Below, piece by piece: positions 1-58,729 of a DNA stretch of 64,000 nt. The stretch spans positions 310,001-374,000 of the forward strand of contig CANQFC010000001.1 of the NCBI GenBank assembly GCA_947598155.1, read 5' to 3'. This DNA comes from an uncultured Clostridia bacterium. GTDB taxonomy: Bacteria > Bacillota > Clostridia > Oscillospirales > Acutalibacteraceae. Numbering within the stretch: the stretch's first letter is position 1; each line of letters opens with the position of its first letter. The notes below the pieces were generated by a model. It was not told the DNA's origin. It saw nothing but the letters and a program-made list of their open reading frames with translations, and searched no databases. Made by a program: the position numbers and the translations under genes.

Positions 1-372
1 ATACTTGATACGCCTAAGACTTTATCGTCTCAAAGAGAAATTCCCATATCTGATGCTTTAAAAAGAGTTATGCTCAAGGCGTATGCAAACAGCAATTCAG
101 GTTTTGTAATCTCAAAAAACAATAATTTTATTGGCACAAGAACCTTTGATTATCAGTACAGGAATATGTTAAAAGCGCACAATCTGCCTGTAATGAATTT
201 TCATATTTTGCGTCACACCTTTGCCACACGGTGTGCAGAATCGGGCATGGATGCCAAAACGCTGAGCCGTTTATTGGGTCATGCTTCCGCAAATATATCT
301 TTGAATGTATATGTGCATCCGTCCATAGATACTATGAAAAAACAGCTTGATTCACTGTACACTTCTGCTTAA
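1..372 (+). CDS. Tyrosine recombinase/integrase, C-terminal part (5' truncated by window)
   Basis: The frame is open from base 1, so only the C-terminal ~123 residues are in the window. The catalytic-domain signature is clear: HILRHTFAT carries the H-x-x-R box, LLGHAS the following His, and LNVYVH the nucleophilic Tyr. Members of this family cut and rejoin DNA at att sites to integrate or excise phages, ICEs and islands. It ends at TAA 370-372. In-frame translation past this stop continues NGQNYGPRNTK, which resembles a short C-terminal tail also found near the tRNA-Trp gene (see findings), so the stop could be a recent truncation. No att site is visible beside it. The element it serves cannot be defined from this window. 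Confidence 0.88.
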   Translation: MLDTPKTLSSQREIPISDALKRVMLKAYANSNSGFVISKNNNFIGTRTFDYQYRNMLKAHNLPVMNFHILRHTFATRCAESGMDAKTLSRLLGHASANISLNVYVHPSIDTMKKQLDSLYTSA

Positions 373-564
373 AATGGTCAAAATTATGGTCCAAGGAACA
401 CAAAAGCCTATACACATAAATACGCCGACTGTCTTTTTAACAGAACTGTTAGTTCTACGAAAATAATATTTTTAGCAAAACTGTCTGTAATTATTCGCGT
501 AAAGATGTGAACGGTAATTTGCCGATTACATATAAAAACAAATTCAATGCAGAGGAGTAAAAAA
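373..564. other. Intergenic region between integrase and protease-FHA gene
   Basis: About 190 bp, AT-rich. It contains a small hairpin AGAAC-tgtta-GTTCT near 436 without a convincing U-tract. No consensus sigma-A promoter could be identified for the downstream operon. Confidence 0.4.
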
Positions 565-2262
565 ATGAAAATTAAAGAAACAAAGAGACGCCGATTTATC
601 AGTCGTGTTATCGCAATTGTAATGGCATTTTGTCTTATGTTCAGCGCAGTCATTACCGTAAATGCGGCGGAGGCTAACGAGCGTGTGCATGACGCAAAAA
701 GCGGCGTTGTTCAGATTCAGGTTTGGTTTTATGATGTAGAAGCCGCACATGAAGAGTTTGTGCACTCGGGAACAGGTTTCCTTATCAATGAAAATACGAT
801 TGTTACATGTCAGCATGTAGCTAACGGCTATTCAGATGAAGAGTATTTATACTGGACTCAGATGATAAATGAAGCTTTAGGCGGAAACCGCACTGTTGCT
901 GAGGTTAAAGATAAGTTAGAGTTGCGCGTAAGTGTTTACCGCGATGTTTATGTTAAAGCCACAGTTAAAAAGGCAAGTACCGAAATGGACTATGCAGTTC
1001 TGACCTTAAACGAGCCCATCAAAGACCGCGTTCCGTTAAAACTCCGCGACAGTTCAACACTCCGTCAGACAGAGGATGTTTTTGCATTAGGTTTTCCTGG
1101 AGAAATGGTAAATCTTGAGAACGCCAAGTATTACGATGTTTCATCTGTTGAAATCACCGGCGGCAAGGTAAATAGAATCGCCGATATGAGCTTTGATGTC
1201 AAAGACAGTTACGGGGAAATAACCGGCCGTTATAACAGTGTAAACTGTGTTGAACACGGCGCAATTATTTCAGGCGGCAATTCAGGCGGCCCGTTGGTTG
1301 ATGCTGACGGCAATGTTGTCGGTATTAATGCGGTGGGCAGCAACACGCGAAATATTGCAATCGCCAGTAAACAGCTTATTGATGTATTAGATGCGCTCGG
1401 AATCTCTTATACATCGGCAGATGCTCAACCGTCTGAATCACCTTCGGAAAATGTCAGCAGTGAAGCGCCGCAAGTGGATACAGGCAGACTGTCAGGATTG
1501 ATTACAGATGCAGAAGCTGTGAATGCTAATGATTACAGCGAAGAGTCATACAAAAATCTTAAAAATGCTATCACAGCGGCTAAATCTGCTTTAACCTCCG
1601 ACTCACAAAGCGAAATTGACAAAGCAGCATCAGAGCTTAAAAATGCAATTGACGCATTAGAAAATAATAAAGCAAAATCTCCTATGGGGAAATACGGTCT
1701 GATTATTGTAATTGCTCTGGTTGCAGTTGCAATTATAGCGGTGGTAATCGTTCTTGTTGTTCTCGGAAAGAAAAAGTCAAAGCCTCAGGCGGCGCAGGCA
1801 GTTCCTGCTTCTGCACCCGTGGTTCAAGCTCCCGCTTCGAAGCCTGTTGCTTCTGCAAAGCCCGCAGCGCCTGCATCTTCGGAAACTACGGTTCTTTCAC
1901 AGGGCTCAAGCGAGACAACCGTTCTTTCGCAGGGAGCAGGGGAAACTACTGTTCTTTCTCAGAATGTACATGGCGGTACTCTGGTGCGTTTAAGCAATAA
2001 TGAGCGTATTCCGATTTGCGCCGCTGAATTTACAGTGGGCAGAGAGCGCAGCAGTGTAGATTACTGCGTAGGCGGAAATACAAATATCAGCCGTGTTCAC
2101 GCAAGATTTGTTGTCCGTGACGGCGCTACATACATTGTAGACAACAAAGCGGCAAACGGCACCTTTGTAAACGGCGTAAAGGCACGCGCAGGACAGGAAA
2201 TTCAGCTTAAAAACGGTGACAAGATTGTTCTTGCCGACGAAAAGTTTGAATTTAATAAGTAA
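565..2262 (+). CDS. Membrane-anchored trypsin-like serine protease with cytoplasmic FHA domain
   Basis: The ATG at 565 is chosen because AGAGGAG lies 7 nt upstream; the ORF-track start at 547 is 18 nt earlier and lacks this. The 565-residue product has a signal peptide (residues 1-35, ending VNAAEA), then a trypsin/HtrA-type fold with His84 (TCQHV), Asp142 (EMDYAV) and Ser240 (GGNSGGPL). A FIVAR-like helical segment follows (about 312-365), then one membrane helix (377-401), a Pro/Ala linker, three tandem ETTVLSQ motifs (440-466) and an FHA domain (about 473-563) with GR, SRVHA and NGTFVNG. So the protease is outside and a phosphothreonine reader inside. The ETTVLSQ threonines are likely targets of the kinase two genes downstream. 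The exact substrate is unknown. Confidence 0.85.
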   Translation: MKIKETKRRRFISRVIAIVMAFCLMFSAVITVNAAEANERVHDAKSGVVQIQVWFYDVEAAHEEFVHSGTGFLINENTIVTCQHVANGYSDEEYLYWTQMINEALGGNRTVAEVKDKLELRVSVYRDVYVKATVKKASTEMDYAVLTLNEPIKDRVPLKLRDSSTLRQTEDVFALGFPGEMVNLENAKYYDVSSVEITGGKVNRIADMSFDVKDSYGEITGRYNSVNCVEHGAIISGGNSGGPLVDADGNVVGINAVGSNTRNIAIASKQLIDVLDALGISYTSADAQPSESPSENVSSEAPQVDTGRLSGLITDAEAVNANDYSEESYKNLKNAITAAKSALTSDSQSEIDKAASELKNAIDALENNKAKSPMGKYGLIIVIALVAVAIIAVVIVLVVLGKKKSKPQAAQAVPASAPVVQAPASKPVASAKPAAPASSETTVLSQGSSETTVLSQGAGETTVLSQNVHGGTLVRLSNNERIPICAAEFTVGRERSSVDYCVGGNTNISRVHARFVVRDGATYIVDNKAANGTFVNGVKARAGQEIQLKNGDKIVLADEKFEFNK

Positions 2263-2297
2263 TTCAAATAAAGGCATTGAATTTATTCATTCAGAGC

Positions 2298-2322
2298 AAG
2301 GGCGGCTGTTGCTGCCGCCTTT
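2298..2322 (+). terminator. Hairpin after protease-FHA gene (weak terminator)
   Basis: A 9-bp stem AAGGGCGGC/GCCGCCTTT with a 7-nt loop is followed by a T-rich but interrupted tract. It may only partly terminate, so the PP2C gene 62 nt downstream could still be co-transcribed. Confidence 0.5.
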
Positions 2323-2384
2323 GTTCTGTTATTGATTTTTGTATTTAGTATATGGCACAAATATTTGTTTAGGGAGTTGCATTT

Positions 2385-3152
2385 ATGAATTTTCTCGTTT
2401 CGGCAAATACAGATATCGGTATTGTTAAAGACACCAATCAGGACGGCTTGTCCGTAAAGGTTATTAACACGTCTCAGGGTAAAATGATATTTGCAATTCT
2501 GTGTGACGGAATGGGTGGCCTTTCAAACGGCGAGGTTGCAAGCACCACAGTAATATCAGCATTTAATGAATGGGTTTTTAATGAGCTTCCCGTGCTGTGC
2601 AGTTCCTCCATTGAGGATTCGACAATAAGAACACAGTGGGAGAATATTGTGATAAAGCAAAATGAGATTATTAAAGCATACGGTGAAAGGCAGGGCATAC
2701 GGCTCGGCACCACTGTTGTTGCAATGTTGATTACCCAAAACAGATTTTACATTTTAAATATAGGCGATTCCCGTGCGTATGAAATTTTTGATACAATTCA
2801 TCAGCTGACAGAAGACCAGACATTTGTTGCCCGTGAAATACAGCTGGGCAGAATGACACCCGAAGAGGCTAAGACCGATTCCCGAAAAAACGTTCTTCTT
2901 CAATGCGTCGGCGCGTCGGAGGAGGTCTATCCGGATATGTTTTTCGGAGAAGTCAAAAAAGATGCAGTTTATATGCTGTGCTCAGACGGCTTTAGACATG
3001 AGATAACACCTGATGAAATATATGAGAAATTTAAACCGGGCGCTCTGACAGATACTGCTGTTATGGATAATAATACAAAACAGCTTATTGAGTTAAACAA
3101 ACAGCGCGCAGAACGGGATAATATCTCGGTTGTGCTTGTCAGAACATATTAA
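2385..3152 (+). CDS. PP2C-family protein serine/threonine phosphatase
   Basis: A 255-residue soluble phosphatase of the metal-dependent PPM/PP2C family, the usual partner of bacterial PknB-like kinases. Visible motifs are DTNQDG (2-metal site, Asp), CDGMGG, LGTTVVA, NIGDSRAY, LTEDQ, CSDGFRHE and the C-terminal RDNISVVLV, in the normal family order and length. The SD AGGGAG sits before the ATG. The kinase gene starts 11 nt after its stop, so the two are translationally linked. It should reverse the phosphorylation made by that kinase, including on the FHA protein upstream. Family assignment is certain; the substrates are inferred from context. Confidence 0.93.
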   Translation: MNFLVSANTDIGIVKDTNQDGLSVKVINTSQGKMIFAILCDGMGGLSNGEVASTTVISAFNEWVFNELPVLCSSSIEDSTIRTQWENIVIKQNEIIKAYGERQGIRLGTTVVAMLITQNRFYILNIGDSRAYEIFDTIHQLTEDQTFVAREIQLGRMTPEEAKTDSRKNVLLQCVGASEEVYPDMFFGEVKKDAVYMLCSDGFRHEITPDEIYEKFKPGALTDTAVMDNNTKQLIELNKQRAERDNISVVLVRTY

Positions 3153-3163
3153 GGGGTAAAGGT

Positions 3164-4873
3164 ATGTTAGAGGTAGGTTCACTTGTTGACGGAAAATATA
3201 AAATATTAAATAAAGTAGGACAGGGCGGAATGAGCGTTGTTTATCTCGCTATGAACGAAAGAGCGAATAAGCAATGGGCAGTTAAAGAGGTGCGCAAGGA
3301 CGGCACTTTGAATTTTGAGGCGGTAAAGCAGGGCCTTATCGCGGAGACAGACATTCTCAAAAAGCTTAAGCATCCGCATCTGCCGAGCATCGCAGATATT
3401 ATTGATACCGAAGATTCGTTCATTATCATAATGGACTATATTCAGGGCAATTCCCTTGATAAAGCAATTCGTGATTTCGGAGCACAGCCCGAAGAGGCGG
3501 TAATTGATTGGGCAAAACAGCTTTGCGATGTTCTCGGATATTTACACAGCCTTAATCCGCCGATTATTTACCGTGATATGAAACCGGCTAACGTAATGCT
3601 TCAGCCGAACACAAGCGATAAATATCCTTGGGGCGAAATATCGCTTATCGATTTCGGCACGGCAAGAGAGTATAAGAATTTTAAAGCCGAAGACACCAAA
3701 AACCTCGGCACACTTGATTATGCCGCTCCGGAGCAGTTCGGCGGCAACGGTCAGACAGACGCCAGAACCGATATTTTTGCTTTGGGCAAAACAATCTATC
3801 ATCTTGTTACGGGGCTTTCTCCGCGCAGTCCTCAAACCGAGTATGATATGCTGCCCATAAGGCAGTTAAATCCTCAGCTTTCAAGCGGTCTTGAAAAAAT
3901 TATTATTAAATGTACACAGCAAAACCGTAACGACCGTTATCAATCCTGTGCGGAACTTCTGTATGATTTGGATCATTACAGAGACCTTGAAGATGAGCAC
4001 ATAAAACAGCAAAAAAATAAAATAAAGCTGTTTGCCGCATCTGCAACACTCACGCTGATTTTTGCAATTGTTTCCGTTTTCGGTTTTTTCTCCGCCGAGG
4101 GGGCAAAAAAAGCAAATTACGAATATTTGCTGGCTAATGCCGACAGCGTAGAAAAATATTATGAAACCATTTTAACCGACCCTACGCGCACAGAGGCGTA
4201 TCTCGGTACAGACGATTTTGACGGCTTAATAGATTATTTGATAGCAGACGGCGAGCTGTCTGCGGAAGACAGCGCAGTTCTTGCTAAGCTGAAGGTGGGT
4301 ATTGAAAAGAGCGACAGTAAAGGTTATAACAGCACGGTTGACGTGCTCAATCAGTTAAAAAAGGATAATCCCGACGGCTTTGAGCAGGTTTGCTATGAAA
4401 TCGGCGAAACATATCTTTTCTACTACAATATAGGCGTGGCAAAGGATAAATATCAGACAGCAACCTCTTGGCTGAAGGACTCGGTTGAGAGTTATCCCGT
4501 GTCTAAAATTTACTGCGATATTTCCAACTGTCTGCAAAATGTATATAAGTATGCTAAGGCAAATCAAACCGCAAAGCTTTATGAAGAATATGGAAACCTT
4601 TGGAATGAGGTCGTTATTTTGCATGATGAGACTGTGGATTTGGAAGATGATCTTAAAATTCAGGTATGGAATGAAATTGTCAATATGGTAAATACCAACT
4701 GTAAAGAATTTTGCGAGGTTACAGCTCCTTCCGAGATTAACTCCATGATGAACAGAATACTATCCGAATCCTCAGGTGTTACCAATACTTTCCTTAAAGA
4801 AAATGTTACCAAATTACAGACGAATATTGAGACAACGCTGTCAAAAATCAGTACGGTTGAAAGCCAAAAATAA
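3164..4873 (+). CDS. Transmembrane serine/threonine protein kinase (PknB-like)
   Basis: 569 residues. The N-terminal kinase domain (about 11-272) has the Gly-loop VGQGGMSVVY, Lys41 (AVKEV), catalytic Asp138 in YRDMKPANVM (Tyr instead of the usual His), DFG at 163-165 and the activation-loop end GTLDYAAPEQF. One membrane helix follows (about 288-310), then a C-terminal region of about 260 residues with no PASTA repeats. That region is helix-rich and could be a sensor; it is unlike classical PrkC. The SD AAGGGG lies before the ATG. It sits between the phosphatase and two small membrane proteins in one operon. It likely phosphorylates Thr/Ser motifs of neighbouring proteins read by the FHA domain; this is an inference. 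Confidence 0.92.
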   Translation: MLEVGSLVDGKYKILNKVGQGGMSVVYLAMNERANKQWAVKEVRKDGTLNFEAVKQGLIAETDILKKLKHPHLPSIADIIDTEDSFIIIMDYIQGNSLDKAIRDFGAQPEEAVIDWAKQLCDVLGYLHSLNPPIIYRDMKPANVMLQPNTSDKYPWGEISLIDFGTAREYKNFKAEDTKNLGTLDYAAPEQFGGNGQTDARTDIFALGKTIYHLVTGLSPRSPQTEYDMLPIRQLNPQLSSGLEKIIIKCTQQNRNDRYQSCAELLYDLDHYRDLEDEHIKQQKNKIKLFAASATLTLIFAIVSVFGFFSAEGAKKANYEYLLANADSVEKYYETILTDPTRTEAYLGTDDFDGLIDYLIADGELSAEDSAVLAKLKVGIEKSDSKGYNSTVDVLNQLKKDNPDGFEQVCYEIGETYLFYYNIGVAKDKYQTATSWLKDSVESYPVSKIYCDISNCLQNVYKYAKANQTAKLYEEYGNLWNEVVILHDETVDLEDDLKIQVWNEIVNMVNTNCKEFCEVTAPSEINSMMNRILSESSGVTNTFLKENVTKLQTNIETTLSKISTVESQK

Positions 4874-4887
4874 GGAGGGGACAAGAA

Positions 4888-5343
4888 ATGTCTTATGATA
4901 TGTATAGATATATTTTTATCGGCGGTCTTGCTCTTTCCGCAGTAATGTTGATTACAACTATTATACTGTTTTTCCTTTTAAATATAAAAGCGGCTGTCGG
5001 CGATATAACAGGCTCAAGTAAACGTAAAGAAATTGAAAATATTCGCAATAAGAATGTTTCGTCAAATCCCGACCAAAAGGCCGAAGGCAAGCTAAATAAA
5101 AAGAATAAAACGGTTTACGAAAATCAGGAAGAAGAGTTCGGCGAAACATCTAAAATCAGTCTTCAGGACCGTTATGACAACTTAGCATCCGAAACATCCC
5201 TATTGAACGAAGAAGAGGATGAAATAAATTATGAAGAAAAATCACAGCCGGTTTTGGAAAGCGATGATATGAAAAACAGTAATTCAAATTTTTATATTGA
5301 GACTGACATAACCTTCGTGCATTCAAATGAGGTTGTAAGATGA
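4888..5343 (+). CDS. Small single-pass membrane protein of kinase operon, unknown function
   Basis: 151 residues, family not recognised. One N-terminal membrane helix (about residues 8-32) is followed by a long, charged, probably disordered tail rich in Lys, Glu and Asn. The tail contains SETSLLNEE, reminiscent of the triple SETTVLSQ motif in the FHA protease, so it may be another phosphorylation or FHA-docking site. The C-terminus ends ETDITFVHSNEVVR, a compact hydrophobic motif that looks conserved rather than random. The SD GGAGGGG lies upstream. Its stop overlaps the next ATG (ATGA), implying coupled translation. Possibly an adaptor between the kinase and the downstream membrane/surface proteins. 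Confidence 0.7.
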   Translation: MSYDMYRYIFIGGLALSAVMLITTIILFFLLNIKAAVGDITGSSKRKEIENIRNKNVSSNPDQKAEGKLNKKNKTVYENQEEEFGETSKISLQDRYDNLASETSLLNEEEDEINYEEKSQPVLESDDMKNSNSNFYIETDITFVHSNEVVR

Positions 5344-5816
5344 ATTTAATATCGCGTTATATACTTGGTTTAAGAGCTTCTGTAATATGCTCTGTGCTTT
5401 CATCATCAGCAGTTCTTATCAGCTTAGCAGGGGTTTATAGACCTAACAATTTTGCAGTTAAGATTTTGGCTCCTTTACTGTTTTGGGGCGGTCTGATAGC
5501 AGAGCAAATACTAATATGGAAATCTAATAAAAGCCGCAAAGTAATAGAAAGCAGTCAGAAAGGGCGGAAAATTCAAGGCCTGCCGGGCATTTTTTCATTC
5601 TTTAAAACAAAAGCCGGCTTTGCCGCAGATGTAATTTTCATTTTTTCGGCGCTGATATATCTTGTTTTGGCTGTTTGCAATACGGGAGTAAAATACGCGC
5701 AGTATATATTCATTTTTCTTACGGTTTTAACCTTCAGGCTGCACTGCATTCTGAATGGAAAAAACTTCAGATACAAAAATAATTTAGCGAAGAGAAAGGT
5801 GTTAAATGATGTTTAG
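5340..5816 (+). CDS. Small polytopic membrane protein of kinase operon, unknown function
   Basis: 158 residues, family not recognised. About four hydrophobic segments are visible: roughly 12-32, 40-58, 92-112 and 118-135. A basic loop (KSNKSRKVIESSQKGRK) lies between the second and third. Its start overlaps the previous gene (ATGA) and its end overlaps the start of the giant surface protein by about 10 nt, so all three are tightly coupled. A membrane partner or assembly factor for the surface protein is plausible, but nothing in the sequence proves it. Confidence 0.65.
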   Translation: MNLISRYILGLRASVICSVLSSSAVLISLAGVYRPNNFAVKILAPLLFWGGLIAEQILIWKSNKSRKVIESSQKGRKIQGLPGIFSFFKTKAGFAADVIFIFSALIYLVLAVCNTGVKYAQYIFIFLTVLTFRLHCILNGKNFRYKNNLAKRKVLNDV

Positions 5817-8800
5817 AGATTTAAAGAAATCAACATCAAGAATAACGGCAGTTGTTTTGAGTGTAGTAATGCTTTTAACAGTGATACCGTTTGGTACGCT
5901 TATTAACGCTTTTGCTGTAACTGTGGACAGCTATACCGTTACTTTAACTGACGGCTCATCAGCTATTAATCTTGATGGGGTTGAGATTACCCTTACAAAT
6001 AAAGCTGATGCTTCGAAAAGTTCTGTACAAAACACTTCAAATGGTGTAGCAATCTTTGAAAACTTTGTAGAGGAGGAAGAAACATATACAGTTTCTGTTG
6101 CTGAAAAAACAGGCTATGAATCTGTAGCTGATTTTGAAATTACTCCTGCAAGCGGGGAAAACAACTATGATGTTACTTATGTGGCAATCCCCGAAATTGA
6201 ACTTCAGGGAACAGTTATTGATGAAAACGGCGCTCCTTACAAGGGCGCTACGGTCGAGGTAACTGGTTATATAACCGAAACGGCAGTAACCGGTGATGAT
6301 GGTAAATATAGTTTTACAGCTTATAAAGGAAAAGACTATACTGTTACAGCAACGGCTAAAGAAGAAAAATATGAAAAGGTTTCAACTGAGATTACTAATT
6401 TAAGTGAAACCCAGCCTGCAAGCGAACTAAAGTTTAAAGTAAAGGAATTTAATATTTCCACAGCTGCAACTGATTCTAACGGAACGATTTCAGAATCAGG
6501 TAATGTTAAGTATGGTGAAAGCAAGACAATTACCGCAACTGCAAATGATGGATATTGTATTGATAGCTTTAAGGTTGACGATGTTGAACAACCAAATGCA
6601 ACCTCTAAAAAAGAATTTACATACTCTTTTTCTAACATTACAGATTCACATTCTGTAAGCGTATCTTTCAAAGTACAAAAATATAAAATCTCCTTTACCG
6701 TTGATGAAAACGGTAAGGTTGAATATACCGAAGGCTCAAAGCGAGAGGAAGTAGGCGGCTCTGTTAAGATTGATAAAGAATTTAATGAATCGGAAGATCC
6801 TTTAAATCCTACAAAAGTAATTGTTGATGCTATTCCTAATGACACATATCGCGTTTCCAAAATCGTGGTTGACGGAGCAGAACAAACATTTACAGAGAAT
6901 GATAAAAAGGTCGAAGGAACAGAATTTATAATGACAAAAGATCACACTTTTGTTGTTGAGTTTAGTCGTAATCAATACTCTGTAAAAATCAATAATGGTA
7001 AAAATGGTACAGCGACAGTCGATAACGAAATTGTTGAATACAATGGCGCGGCTACTGTGACAATTATTCCTGATGATGGTTATGAAATTTCATCATTAAA
7101 ATTAAATGGAGTTGAAGTTGATCCGGAAGGTGAAGATTTTGCTCAAAGCTATACTTTATATGTAGACAATATAACAGCAAATCAAACTATTGATATAGAA
7201 TATGCGCTTATTCAATCTTCAACAGTATTTGATAAAATTGATAATGATTATTATACCATTACTTTTAACAAGGACGGAGATACTTTTAATCCGGTTATTA
7301 TTGGTAATAAGTATATAGTTCCTGACGGCACTATTATTCAAGTACATCCAAAAGCCCCTTATGTTCGTACATCAATTAACTATAATGTAAAATATACTGC
7401 TTCGGTATCAACTATTAAACAACCCATAACAATTGATGAAATAGATGTTGATAAAGATAATAAGATTGGTGGATGGAATCGAATCAAAAATATAAATATC
7501 GAAATAATTTTTGATACAAAATCTCCATCAATTCCTAAAATAACTAAAGAACCTGACAAAGATTTTAATAATTATGAGTACACTATTTCTGCTGCTGTAA
7601 CAGATGACATTGCAGGTGTAGATAAGGTATATTATTCTGCAACCAATGATTTTTCAACAGCTGCAGAGGCAGAGTTCAATTCGGAAACCAATACAGCGCA
7701 ATTCAAAACAGATAGTGCAGAAAATAATTACGAATATTTTATTTGGGCAGTAGATAAAGTAGGAAATTTAACAGCAGGAGATGATGTGAAATCAATTCCT
7801 GTTGCAATTGATAAGTCAGAACCGACAATTGATAAATTCGATTTTTCAAGTAGCTCTCTTAATGTTTGTGAATTTGGCACTTTTAGTAACGAGAATATAA
7901 AGGTTCTTATCACCGCAAGCGATACAAAGAGTGAAACTACAAATTCAGGAATTGCAAGCATTACCTTTAACGGTCAAACTGTTGAGGCTAAGGATTTTAA
8001 AGACGGTAAGGCTGAATTTACTTTAAATGCAAATGATTTTTCTGCGACTAAAGAAGTAAGTGCAACAGCCACAGATAATGCAGGAAATGTAAGCCAAACT
8101 ACAATTCCTACAAGCGAAAACTCAAATATTAAAAGTAATAAAATTACGATTTCTAATGTTAAGGCCACTATTGTATCCGAAAGAAAATACGATGCGAAAT
8201 ATATCAACGGCGAAGAATACTGGTATGATGGCGACACTGATTTCACAGTAAAAGTAACAGATGAATTCGGAATCCAATCAGTTGTCATAAAAATGAACGG
8301 CGTTGAAGTATTAAATAAGAATTATAATAACAGTGCAAATGCCGTTAAGGAAAAAGAATATACTGTTAATACTTCTGAAAACCCGAATGATGGTAAGAAT
8401 GAAATAAGTGTAGAGGTAGTAAATGTAAATAACAATTCGTCAAGCGATAACAAATCGTTATACATTGATACCACAGCGCCCGATGTAGTTGCCTTTAATA
8501 TAACAAAAGTCGGCGAAACACCGCTTGATAAGGTGCTTAATATCTTAACCTTCGGTATTTTCTTTAACGAAAAGGTTGAAATTACAGTAACGGCTAATGA
8601 CAAAAATGCAACCTCAGGTATAGATTCAATTACACTTTACGCAGGCGAAGAATCCCTTGGCACAGAGAATGTCAATAAAGATAATAAGGCAACATTCACC
8701 GTACCCACAGAAGATATTACCGATGAAGCAAAATATTTTGACAAAGTTCTTTCAGCCGTTGCCACGGATAATGTAGGCAACATAACCGAAAATAGGGTAG

Positions 8801-11745
8801 AGCCTACAACAGACAATTCAGACATTCTGAACAGCAATTTAATGATTGAAACAGTTAAACCTACCGTTTCCGTTGAATATATTGCTGCCGCAAATGAAAA
8901 GAATACAGACACAGCAGATGAAAACGACTGGTATAATAAAGATATTGATTTCAATATTAAAATCAATGACGCTGATTCAGGAATCAGAAATGTATCTGTG
9001 AAGATTAACGGCGCCGATATTGTTCTTGATAAAGACAATAAAAATATTGACGCTAAATTCTATGAGAAAGACGAAAAAACAACTGACCTTACCTTCACAG
9101 TGAATACAAATCAGGCAACACGCAATGAAGACGGCTCATATACTATTGAAATTTCGGTTACCGATAATGCGGGGAATGTATCCGAACCTTACAAAAAGAC
9201 AATTTACAAGGATACCGATAATCCCTACATCACTAAATTTGATTTTGAGCCTGAAAATTTTGCCGAGGGCAGTAACACTGATTTAAAGCTTGAGGTTACC
9301 GATTACGGTTTCTACTTTAAGGAAGATACAAAAGTGACAATCTCTTCAAGGGATGACAAACCTTCATCGGGAATTAAGTCAATTACATATTATACAGTTG
9401 ACAAGGACAGCAAAAACAGTGCAGAGATTACTGCGCCCGTAAATGCTGACGGGCAGGTAAGCTTTATTATCAAGGCTAATTTTAAGGGTCAGATTTATGC
9501 AAAGGCTACGGATAATGTAGACAATGTTCAGGAGAATTTTGTAAATCCGAACAGCGCAATTATTGAAGATGAAACAAAGCACAGAGAAGAAGAGCATATT
9601 GCATTTGAAAAAGACAGCACGGCAAATAAAACTCAAAGCGGTTCAGAGCTTTATAAAAATGATGTTCCTGTAACAATTACGGTAACAGACACTTATTCAG
9701 GCATCCGTGAAATTGAATGGTCGGTTGTTGCTCCTTATGACAAAGATAGCAATCAGAGCGGAAAGGTTACCGTAGATAACAAGAAAACCTTCACTGATGA
9801 CAGCGATTCAGGCTGGCGGCAGACAAAGACTGAGGCGAATCTTGTAACGGAAATGGAAAAAACCATTACTGTAAATAACAACAGTAACGATATTGTTGTT
9901 AAAGTAAAAATGACTGACAGAGCAGGAAATACCTCTGAAAAATCAATCAGCTTCTGCATAGATAAAACCAAACCCACAATTGAAGTTACCTACGATAATA
10001 ATACGCCTGACGAAAAATATACAAATATTTACAAGGCAAACCGTACCGCAACAATTAAGGTAACAGAGAGAAATTTTGACAGTAAGAATATCGTTTATAA
10101 CATCACGAATACCGACGGCGTAATTCCGAAACTGTCCGATTGGAAGGAATATAAAAATACCGATAATCCCGATGAAACATACTACATTGCATCAATTGCA
10201 TATACAGCAGACGGGGATTATACATTTGACATAAGCTATTCCGACCGCGCAGGAAATGCGGCTGATAAATTTGCACAGCACAAATTTACAATTGACAAAA
10301 CAAAGCCGATTGTAACTGTTTCTTACGATAACAATTCAGCAAGCAACGGTATTTACTATAAGGCGGACAGAACAGCTACCATTACAATTGTTGAGCATAA
10401 TTTTGATGCTGAGCGTGTAGCAATTCTTGAATCAGCGCCTTCAATCAGCGCTTGGAAGAGTGTCGGCGATACGCATACCGCAACTATTAGTTACAAAACA
10501 GACGGTAAATACACGCTTGATATAGAATTTACCGATATGGCAGGAAACAGCATTGACGATTTTGCCGCTCAGAATTTCTATATAGATAAAACAAATCCTG
10601 TTTTATCTATTTCAGGCATTGCAGATAAATCTGCAAATAACGACAGCGGAAACATCGGCTTTACTGTTACGGCTACTGATGATAACTTCGACGTATTTGT
10701 ACCCGTATTGTCTGCGGTTATAATGAAAGACGGTAAATTTGAATCCCAAAATCTTACTATCGGCAATACTGAGGATATAGAAAAAGGCAAGAGATATACT
10801 GTCACCAATATAAATACCGACGGTATATACAGCATTACCTGTACCGTAACAGACAAGGCGGGAAATGCATACAGCGAGGTAATATTAGAGAATGCTAACG
10901 GGAAAAACTATGTTGAAAAACGCTCAGGCTCAGATAAACTGGTAACATTCTCAGTTAACCGCGGTGGCTCTGTGTTCTCACCCAATGCCTTTACCGAAAA
11001 TCTTTTGAAGACTTATTACGTAAAGAATATTACAGAAAATGTTACGTTAATCGAAATTAACGCAGACCCGATTTTAGAAAATACAGTAACTCTTAACGGT
11101 AAAAAGCTTGTTGAAAATACCGATTACACCGTTACTGCCGACAACAGCGCAGGCTCGTGGTATAAGTATTCTTACAGCATCAATAAGGCTCTGTTTGAGG
11201 GCGAAAGCGAATATATCGTTGTTATATCGTCTAAGGATAAAGCCGGTAACGAGGCATTCAGCGATGTTAAGGGAATTTCAGCTAAATTTGTTGTTGATAG
11301 AACGGCGCCCATAGTTACAGTAGCAGGTATTAAAACAAACGGCAGATATCAAGTCGAAAAGCAAGTTGTTACTGTTGTACCGACAGATGACGGCGGTTCG
11401 CTGAAAAGCCTTATTGTACGCACGGTAGATAAAAACGGCGCGGTGATTAAGGAGTTAATTAACCTTTCAGGCGAAGATTTAGTTAATGCAATTGCAGCCG
11501 GAAATATTACGTTTGAACTTAGCGAGGGTCTTTATCAGAATGTTCAGATTATCTGTGAGGATTACGCAGGCAACATAAGCGGTGCCAAGACAGATGAAAT
11601 TTATTCTAATGTATCTATTTCTTCAAGTGCAATAATGATTTTCTGGGCGAATAAGCCTCTTCGCTGGGGCTCTATTGCAGGGGTAATTCTGTTAACAGCG
11701 GCAATTATATTTGCGGTTATCCGTAAAAAACGCAAAGAAGAATAA
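5806..11745 (+). CDS. Giant Ig-repeat surface protein with C-terminal membrane anchor
   Basis: 1979 residues. The start is ATG 5806 or 5809 (SD GAAAGG upstream). There is a signal peptide ending near INAFA, then two carboxypeptidase-regulatory/CNA-B-like beta domains (about 43-215) and three InlB-type 'bacterial repeat' domains (about 218-455; features such as YGESKTITATANDGY). A long series of Ig-like domains follows, each ending in a D-x-AGN strand (for example TDNAGNVS, TDRAGNTS, SDRAGNAA, TDMAGNS, TDKAGN); I count about ten AGN or VGN copies. Two adjacent modules share YDNN...YKA.RTATI...NFD and look like a recent duplication. The C-terminus has one membrane helix and the basic tail IRKKRKEE, not an LPXTG sorting signal. 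Likely an adhesin or cell-envelope stalk tied to the kinase operon. Confidence 0.85.
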   Translation: MMFRDLKKSTSRITAVVLSVVMLLTVIPFGTLINAFAVTVDSYTVTLTDGSSAINLDGVEITLTNKADASKSSVQNTSNGVAIFENFVEEEETYTVSVAEKTGYESVADFEITPASGENNYDVTYVAIPEIELQGTVIDENGAPYKGATVEVTGYITETAVTGDDGKYSFTAYKGKDYTVTATAKEEKYEKVSTEITNLSETQPASELKFKVKEFNISTAATDSNGTISESGNVKYGESKTITATANDGYCIDSFKVDDVEQPNATSKKEFTYSFSNITDSHSVSVSFKVQKYKISFTVDENGKVEYTEGSKREEVGGSVKIDKEFNESEDPLNPTKVIVDAIPNDTYRVSKIVVDGAEQTFTENDKKVEGTEFIMTKDHTFVVEFSRNQYSVKINNGKNGTATVDNEIVEYNGAATVTIIPDDGYEISSLKLNGVEVDPEGEDFAQSYTLYVDNITANQTIDIEYALIQSSTVFDKIDNDYYTITFNKDGDTFNPVIIGNKYIVPDGTIIQVHPKAPYVRTSINYNVKYTASVSTIKQPITIDEIDVDKDNKIGGWNRIKNINIEIIFDTKSPSIPKITKEPDKDFNNYEYTISAAVTDDIAGVDKVYYSATNDFSTAAEAEFNSETNTAQFKTDSAENNYEYFIWAVDKVGNLTAGDDVKSIPVAIDKSEPTIDKFDFSSSSLNVCEFGTFSNENIKVLITASDTKSETTNSGIASITFNGQTVEAKDFKDGKAEFTLNANDFSATKEVSATATDNAGNVSQTTIPTSENSNIKSNKITISNVKATIVSERKYDAKYINGEEYWYDGDTDFTVKVTDEFGIQSVVIKMNGVEVLNKNYNNSANAVKEKEYTVNTSENPNDGKNEISVEVVNVNNNSSSDNKSLYIDTTAPDVVAFNITKVGETPLDKVLNILTFGIFFNEKVEITVTANDKNATSGIDSITLYAGEESLGTENVNKDNKATFTVPTEDITDEAKYFDKVLSAVATDNVGNITENRVEPTTDNSDILNSNLMIETVKPTVSVEYIAAANEKNTDTADENDWYNKDIDFNIKINDADSGIRNVSVKINGADIVLDKDNKNIDAKFYEKDEKTTDLTFTVNTNQATRNEDGSYTIEISVTDNAGNVSEPYKKTIYKDTDNPYITKFDFEPENFAEGSNTDLKLEVTDYGFYFKEDTKVTISSRDDKPSSGIKSITYYTVDKDSKNSAEITAPVNADGQVSFIIKANFKGQIYAKATDNVDNVQENFVNPNSAIIEDETKHREEEHIAFEKDSTANKTQSGSELYKNDVPVTITVTDTYSGIREIEWSVVAPYDKDSNQSGKVTVDNKKTFTDDSDSGWRQTKTEANLVTEMEKTITVNNNSNDIVVKVKMTDRAGNTSEKSISFCIDKTKPTIEVTYDNNTPDEKYTNIYKANRTATIKVTERNFDSKNIVYNITNTDGVIPKLSDWKEYKNTDNPDETYYIASIAYTADGDYTFDISYSDRAGNAADKFAQHKFTIDKTKPIVTVSYDNNSASNGIYYKADRTATITIVEHNFDAERVAILESAPSISAWKSVGDTHTATISYKTDGKYTLDIEFTDMAGNSIDDFAAQNFYIDKTNPVLSISGIADKSANNDSGNIGFTVTATDDNFDVFVPVLSAVIMKDGKFESQNLTIGNTEDIEKGKRYTVTNINTDGIYSITCTVTDKAGNAYSEVILENANGKNYVEKRSGSDKLVTFSVNRGGSVFSPNAFTENLLKTYYVKNITENVTLIEINADPILENTVTLNGKKLVENTDYTVTADNSAGSWYKYSYSINKALFEGESEYIVVISSKDKAGNEAFSDVKGISAKFVVDRTAPIVTVAGIKTNGRYQVEKQVVTVVPTDDGGSLKSLIVRTVDKNGAVIKELINLSGEDLVNAIAAGNITFELSEGLYQNVQIICEDYAGNISGAKTDEIYSNVSISSSAIMIFWANKPLRWGSIAGVILLTAAIIFAVIRKKRKEE

Positions 11746-12000: not shown

Positions 12001-12087
12001 AAAATTCTGTGTGCTTTTATGCCTGTTTACAGGAAAAAGCACATAAAATCAAAAAATAAAAAAGTCTTGAAATCCCTTATATATCAA
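11941..12087. repeat. Imperfect 17-bp direct repeat, candidate att pair downstream of tRNA-Trp
   Basis: AATCACTTATATATCAA (11941-11957) and AATCCCTTATATATCAA (12071-12087) match at 16 of 17 positions and lie 130 bp apart. The right copy is inside the tRNA-Trp terminator; the left copy overlaps the stop of the integrase-like fragment. This is how attL and attR would look after collapse of an element inserted at the tRNA 3' side. A chance AT-rich repeat cannot be excluded. Confidence 0.4.
12011..12042. other. Hairpin between candidate att copies
   Basis: GTGCTTTT...AAAAGCAC encloses an inner CCTG-TTTA-CAGG stem. The structure is nearly perfect but has no U-tract immediately after it. It may belong to the collapsed element. 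Confidence 0.4.
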
Positions 12088-12104
12088 GGAATTACAAGAC
12101 TTTT
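12060..12104 (-). terminator. Intrinsic terminator of tRNA-Trp
   Basis: Read on the minus strand, AAAAGTCTTG pairs with CAAGACTTTT, with an inner stem AATTCCTT/AAGGGATT, followed by TTTATTTTTT. It begins a few bases after the tRNA 3' end. Confidence 0.85.
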
Positions 12105-12108
12105 CTTT

Positions 12109-12184
12109 TGGCAGGGGCAGAAGGACTTGAACCCTCGGCACGCGGTTTTGGAGACCGCTGCTCTACCAACTGAGCTATACCCCT
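12109..12184 (-). tRNA. tRNA-Trp (anticodon CCA)
   Basis: 76 nt including an encoded CCA. Acceptor AGGGGTA pairs with TGCCCCT. The D-loop is AGCTCAGTTGGTAGAGC, the anticodon loop CTCCAAA, and the T-arm contains GGTTCAAGTCC. The overlapping plus-strand ORF (12019-12306, 'QKDLNPRHAVLETAALPTELYP') is the usual shadow of this tRNA. Confidence 0.97.
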
Positions 12185-12293
12185 ATATTTATTTTTGCAT
12201 AAAGACTGTTTTTACCCGCCGCAGGCAACCCGAGCATTGTATTTTGCTCTATTTGGCGGGACAAGTGTGTTTACCTCTTAAAAGCACTGTTCT

Positions 12294-12322
12294 ATTATAC
12301 ATATAACTTGCCTTTTTGTCAA
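12294..12322 (-). promoter_or_regulatory. Consensus sigma-A promoter for tRNA-Trp
   Basis: On the minus strand, TTGACA (12322-12317), a 17-bp spacer and TATAAT (12299-12294). Both boxes are perfect, as expected for a stable RNA gene about 100 nt downstream. Confidence 0.9.
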
Positions 12323-58713: not shown

Positions 58714-58729
58714 ATTGCGAGGTATAAAA

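Follow-up and report, generated by a model that had tools for sequence, protein, structure and literature searches.

The window, a 64,000-nucleotide stretch of a gut-type clostridial genome, carries six co-directional genes at positions 547-11745. They are ordered trypsin-FHA, PP2C phosphatase, Ser/Thr kinase, first small membrane protein (SM1), second small membrane protein (SM2) and giant Ig-like protein, with products of 571, 255, 569, 151, 158 and 1979 amino acids, respectively. The six-gene set described in an earlier, sequence-only reading of this DNA is thus present in full. That reading began the locus at 565, which remains an alternative start; the reading frame can also begin at 547. 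The features, all on the plus strand, are as follows.

547..2262, plus strand: trypsin-like protease / FIVAR / transmembrane (TM) / linker / FHA protein; signal-like N-terminus, may also start at 565
769..1326, plus strand: Trypsin_2 domain, predicted extracellular (Pfam E 5.9e-23)
1882..1902, plus strand: ETTVLSQ repeat 1, trypsin-FHA linker
1912..1932, plus strand: ETTVLSQ repeat 2, trypsin-FHA linker
1942..1962, plus strand: ETTVLSQ repeat 3, trypsin-FHA linker
2032..2232, plus strand: FHA domain (Pfam E 1.1e-14)
2292..2328, plus strand: 15-bp hairpin separating the trypsin-FHA gene from PP2C, kept in six loci
2385..3152, plus strand: PP2C phosphatase (TseF-like)
3164..4873, plus strand: Ser/Thr kinase (TseD-like) with N-terminal kinase domain, one TM helix and helical ectodomain, no PASTA
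4888..5343, plus strand: SM1, with a single TM helix and a long cytoplasmic tail that is probably disordered
5191..5205, plus strand: ETSLL site in SM1 (T-x-x-L), likewise placed in loci L086 and L090
5340..5816, plus strand: SM2, about four hydrophobic segments, no known family
5806..11745, plus strand: TseI-like surface protein of 1979 residues, Ig-like, carrying a signal peptide and anchored by a C-terminal TM segment

Pfam searches with the six window proteins returned Trypsin_2 and FHA, PP2C_2, and Pkinase, with FIVAR slightly below the cut-off, and matched the giant protein to Big_13, Flg_new_2 and CarboxypepD_reg. SM1 and SM2 gave no Pfam or NCBIfam match. At the C-terminus of SM1 (5296-5340) lies a conserved F-x-I-E-x-E-I-T-F-I-H-T-D-E-I-I-like stretch that recurs at the end of SM1 proteins. 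Hydrophobicity and charge predict the protease to lie outside, and the linker, FHA domain, SM1 tail and kinase domain inside. For the kinase ectodomain, a high-confidence prediction gives an all-helical structure. When the kinase model was used in a fold search, the matches listed were all kinase domains, and the ectodomain gave none that was informative. The kinase had been described as free of PASTA repeats, and indeed no PASTA match was obtained; against the PASTA-kinase NCBIfam equivalog it scores 176.9 of 450 bits, below the cut-off.

The residues expected of each activity are conserved. The trypsin catalytic His (C-x-H), Asp (E-x-D) and Ser (GNSGGPL) are invariant among six orthologues, while the kinase Lys, YRD and DFG and the PP2C DG motifs are invariant in their alignments. 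The phosphothreonine (pThr)-binding residues of the FHA domain are of the GKE[RKQ] type in 68 of 71 sequences, SRxH in all 71 and N[HG]T in 66; those of the window are GRER, SRxH and NGT. An AlphaFold model of trypsin-FHA, built from a six-sequence input, was poor (pLDDT 51) and uninformative on docking, and the FHA stretch had no match among PDB sequences at E 1e-6.

The genes had been read as one operon. From PP2C to the giant gene this agrees with their tight packing, with gaps of 11 and 14 nt followed by overlaps of 4 and 11 nt. The membership of trypsin-FHA, in contrast, rests on conserved order and not on contiguity, because 122 nt with a conserved hairpin separate its stop codon from the PP2C start. 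Across the six loci, 97.8% of the cells of the hairpin are paired and 6 pairs show compensatory changes; 0 of 500 shuffles scored as high. The hairpin carries a weak U tail. It is possibly a leaky terminator or processing stem, and it may set the ratio of the FHA protein to the other products.

Several features flank the operon. A tyrosine recombinase gene (from C1:309257) occupies window positions 1-372 and ends shortly upstream, which hints at mobility. A tRNA-Trp gene lies on the minus strand at 12109-12184; the plus-strand open reading frame at 12019-12306 is antisense to it and is probably not a gene. Both copies of the module in this genome are preceded by a gene for a small, M50-like membrane protein that contains HExxH, at L031:8425-8955 and L020:2179-2679; the first lies at G000:C1:308425-308955, 1.05 kb left of the window. 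These are the only two copies in the genome, and homologues adjoin the module in L029, L087, L095, L098 and L136.

Scanning 84,980 species genomes with a PP2C alignment yielded 80 named loci. The kinase adjoins PP2C in 74 of them, an upstream FHA gene is found in 68 and the giant protein in 64. Searches of related genomes also showed the cassette in G010, G030, G040 and G054. The genome of the window itself holds a paralogue at C1:3338-34458, followed by FtsK-like FHA ATPase, WXG100-type and ubiquitin-like genes (full locus C1:3338-45000). Within this paralogous locus, a second kinase and a second PP2C gene stand beside Tad genes at G000:C1:17636-20194. The earlier reading knew of no described system with this composition. 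However, PMC11217815 gives the same component list as part of the T7SSe: kinase TseD, PPM phosphatase TseF, the one-TM proteins TseH and TseK, giant Ig-like TseI and DUF6382-FHA protein TseJ, with control by phosphorylation suggested.

The three ETTVLSQ repeats noted earlier in trypsin-FHA are real and span 1882-1962. Pairwise, they differ at two to four of seven codons, and every difference is synonymous, a pattern that favours selection on the peptide over recent copying. All six trypsin-type loci retain repeats 2 and 3 at a constant distance from the FHA domain. The related SETSLL, which had been placed in the second small membrane protein, actually lies in the first; window SM1 has this single clear site (ETSLL) plus one T-S-K-I site. 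The refutation that the sequence-only reading had offered, a neighbourhood not conserved in related genomes, failed: the neighbourhood is conserved, TTVL and TSLL form one motif class, and orthologues of the SETSLL protein carry exact ETTVL.

Motif counts were made with no pattern named beforehand, on the 80 loci picked by PP2C similarity and blind to the motif; because the loci share ancestry, these numbers are not independent of one another. ETTVL heads the list of 5-mers in SM1 tails, where it occurs in 39 of 71 proteins, and heads it again, in an independent count, in the linkers before the FHA domain (51 of 70). Its density per 1000 residues is 7.85 in SM1 tails and 4.61 in FHA linkers, compared with 0.013 in other proteins of the same loci, an enrichment of 350-600 times. 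The background amounts to 5 occurrences in 393,230 residues, 2 of which actually lie in one SM1 missed by the script, and shuffled sequences gave a mean of 0.05 or less. Relaxed to ET-x-x-L, the motif occurs in 64 of 71 SM1 tails (shuffled mean 5). The pattern persists after thinning the loci to kinase identity under 75, 65 or 60%. Repeat number in the linkers ranges from 0 to 7 per protein. ET-x-x-L is absent from 7 of 71 SM1 tails and no recognised site was found in 13 of 70 FHA linkers, several of which are truncated or variant; some members evidently do without the motif. A T-x-K-I/L-type site, also compatible with T-x-x-L, is common to 58 of 71 SM1 proteins.

One-letter variants of ETTVL delimit the core. 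Changes at positions E/T/T/V/L number 23/1/35/32/0 in SM1 and 12/0/8/5/0 in FHA linkers. The first Thr is altered once and the +3 Leu never, while the rest vary freely; the core is therefore T-x-x-L, which matches the pT+3 rule of FHA domains. In FHA proteins the repeats are spaced 10-13 residues apart in 50 of 53 cases, and the last motif stands 32-39 residues ahead of the FHA Gly-Arg in 58 of 60. An FHA domain with intact pThr-binding residues and, N-terminal to it, a T-x-x-hydrophobic site are both present, as a GarA-like phosphothreonine switch would need.

Within the 2.14-Mb genome of the window, the ETTVL codon pattern occurs eight times, seven of them in frame in module-family proteins (three in trypsin-FHA, two in the paralogous SM1 and two in the paralogous DUF6382-FHA protein). 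The eighth, at 58721, was rejected as an out-of-frame match in a ribosomal-protein gene. Other whole genomes contain scattered single codon matches, so the census is clean for this genome only. ETTVL-like strings in a few DUF5702 proteins were judged to be chance. Zinc-ribbon proteins at two module loci bear the same repeats (EGT[TS]VLD four times in L028:7434-8657; TETEVLS in L029:6018-6662) and may be a third protein class sharing the motif. A literature search for the string ETTVL found no paper, and the passages of the T7SSe description that were consulted do not mention it (PMC11217815).

These comparisons give the phospho-motif idea strong support at the sequence level. E-T-T-V-L beside the FHA domain and in the SM1 tail points to a phosphorylation-controlled docking system, one that lies beside pilus genes in most relatives and occurs with a type VII secretion system in a few. 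ETTVL could instead be a kinase-docking, scaffold or self-association motif rather than a pThr ligand of the FHA domain, since its multiplicity and the disorder around it would suit any linear docking motif. We consider this unlikely: a near-invariant first Thr and an invariant +3 Leu among free neighbours fit a pT+3 ligand better, and the module couples ETTVL with an FHA domain, a kinase and a PP2C phosphatase.

A reading of similarly low probability is that the module regulates or assembles Tad pili, with the window copy acting in trans on a pilus encoded elsewhere. Among the 60 loci with enough upstream flank, at least one Tad gene lies upstream in 44 and at least three in 31. The genome of the window has Tad genes at C1:20-33 kb, and in G054 the Tad/DUF6382-FHA genes are separate from the kinase cassette. 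Against this stands the clade to which the window belongs. In the kinase tree, the trypsin-FHA loci (window and L086-L090) form one clade of six with support 100/100; an apparent absence of the trypsin-FHA gene from L087 was rejected as a gene-calling error. No CpaF reached 1e-70 in four of the five sister genomes, and the fifth has only a distant match (49%), so this form works without a cognate pilus, and the module in the trypsin-FHA clade is separable from the cognate Tad pilus also. Neither a DUF6382 protein nor a TseC-like ATPase was found in the five. As the sisters lack DUF6382, the ATPase and the cognate Tad ATPase, we read the module of the window as a free-standing form of a phospho-relay already described in part.

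Slightly less probable still is that the operon is simply a secretion-system locus of the T7SSe type, or a fragment of such a locus, in which the kinase, phosphatase, FHA protein, SM1 and giant Ig protein serve secretion. The same component list in PMC11217815 (TseD, F, H, I, J and K) speaks for it, as does the full paralogous locus with ATPase, WXG100-type and ubiquitin-like genes in the same genome. However, the open reading frames of the window include no T7SS ATPase, WXG100 or ubiquitin-like gene, and among 50 genomes with the module a TseC-like ATPase was found in 6, against a CpaF match in 41. Incompleteness of metagenome-assembled genomes may conceal individual genes but can scarcely account for the lack of the ATPase in 44 of 50, and the module is thus separable from the T7SS. 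With the ATPase also missing from all five sister genomes, secretion as the role of the window's form is largely refuted. Finally, the repeats could be a neutral tandem duplication within a Pro/Ala linker of low complexity, which would accommodate their position and varying number, but this is highly improbable given synonymous-only divergence, constant spacing to the FHA domain, retention of the motif in DUF6382-FHA proteins, its recurrence in an unrelated second protein and its scarcity elsewhere in the same loci.

The window therefore probably encodes a free-standing form of a clostridial phosphothreonine relay, in which the kinase marks E-T-x-x-L, the FHA domain reads it and the PP2C phosphatase resets it. 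The membrane kinase, with its helical sensor outside, would phosphorylate the first Thr of E-T-x-x-L sites, namely the repeats in the SM1 cytoplasmic tail and those in the FHA-protein linker, about 35 residues before the FHA Arg. The FHA domain would bind pT-x-x-L either in cis, giving a closed state like that of GarA/OdhI, or on SM1, giving a docked one; the phosphatase would reset the relay. Docking would gather the FHA protein, with its outside trypsin-like protease, at a complex of SM1, SM2 and the giant Ig protein. We infer the phosphorylation, the FHA binding and the cis/trans switch from sequence comparison, and likewise that multiple sites may provide avidity or a graded response. Our guess for the output is control of protease access to the Ig surface protein, or of its assembly. 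The interpretation in the sequence-only reading is partly supported overall.

The wider proposal, to which we give about even credence, is a separable and widespread clostridial phospho-docking relay, with multivalent T-x-x-L shared by the FHA protein and SM1, that is not part of the T7SSe core and is coupled to Tad pili, to the T7SSe or, in the clade of the window, to an FHA-tethered surface protease. The T7SSe description left the kinase substrate and the FHA ligand open; the relay would offer a concrete answer, the first Thr of E-T-x-x-L sites, both in SM1 and in the FHA linker. Our results suggest that many of the components published for the T7SSe form a module of their own, which is associated more often with Tad pili. 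They also add a clade with the reader domain fused to a surface protease.

Among known systems, the T7SSe shares with the window a membrane kinase, a PPM phosphatase, a small protein with one TM helix and an unstructured stretch in the cytoplasm, and a giant Ig-like protein that has a signal peptide and a C-terminal TM segment; SM1 matches the description of TseH or TseK, which the text alone cannot separate (PMC11217815). The genes given there as defining the T7SSe are the FtsK-like TseC ATPase with FHA domains, WXG100 TseA/A2 and ubiquitin-like TseB. The window lacks TseC, WXG100 and ubiquitin-like genes and, without the defining ATPase and WXG100 genes, is not classed as T7SSe. Its FHA domain is fused to an outside trypsin domain, whereas TseJ is a DUF6382-FHA protein, and the module is much commoner than the ATPase in the sampled genomes. 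The nearest family to the kinase domain is that of the PASTA kinases PknB/Stk1/StkP, from which the window kinase differs in having a helical ectodomain in place of PASTA repeats. In mycobacterial GarA, the first Thr of ETTS is phosphorylated and bound by the protein's own FHA domain (PMC5448819). GarA and OdhI resemble the window protein in an ETT motif N-terminal to the FHA domain of the same protein, Thr-phosphorylated there and self-binding (PMC5448819, PMC2784874). They are soluble actinobacterial metabolic regulators with a single motif, whereas the window has repeats, a membrane anchor and a second protein that bears the motif as well. In the type VI secretion system (T6SS), the kinase PpkA makes pThr on a membrane protein and Fha binds it (PMC3953482). 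PpkA/PppA/Fha shares the membrane kinase, PP2C phosphatase, FHA reader and membrane protein (there the pThr carrier), but belongs to an unrelated Gram-negative machine in which the ligand is a single TssL site (PMC3953482). By analogy, the window relay would work most like GarA self-binding combined with the PpkA-TssL-Fha pathway.
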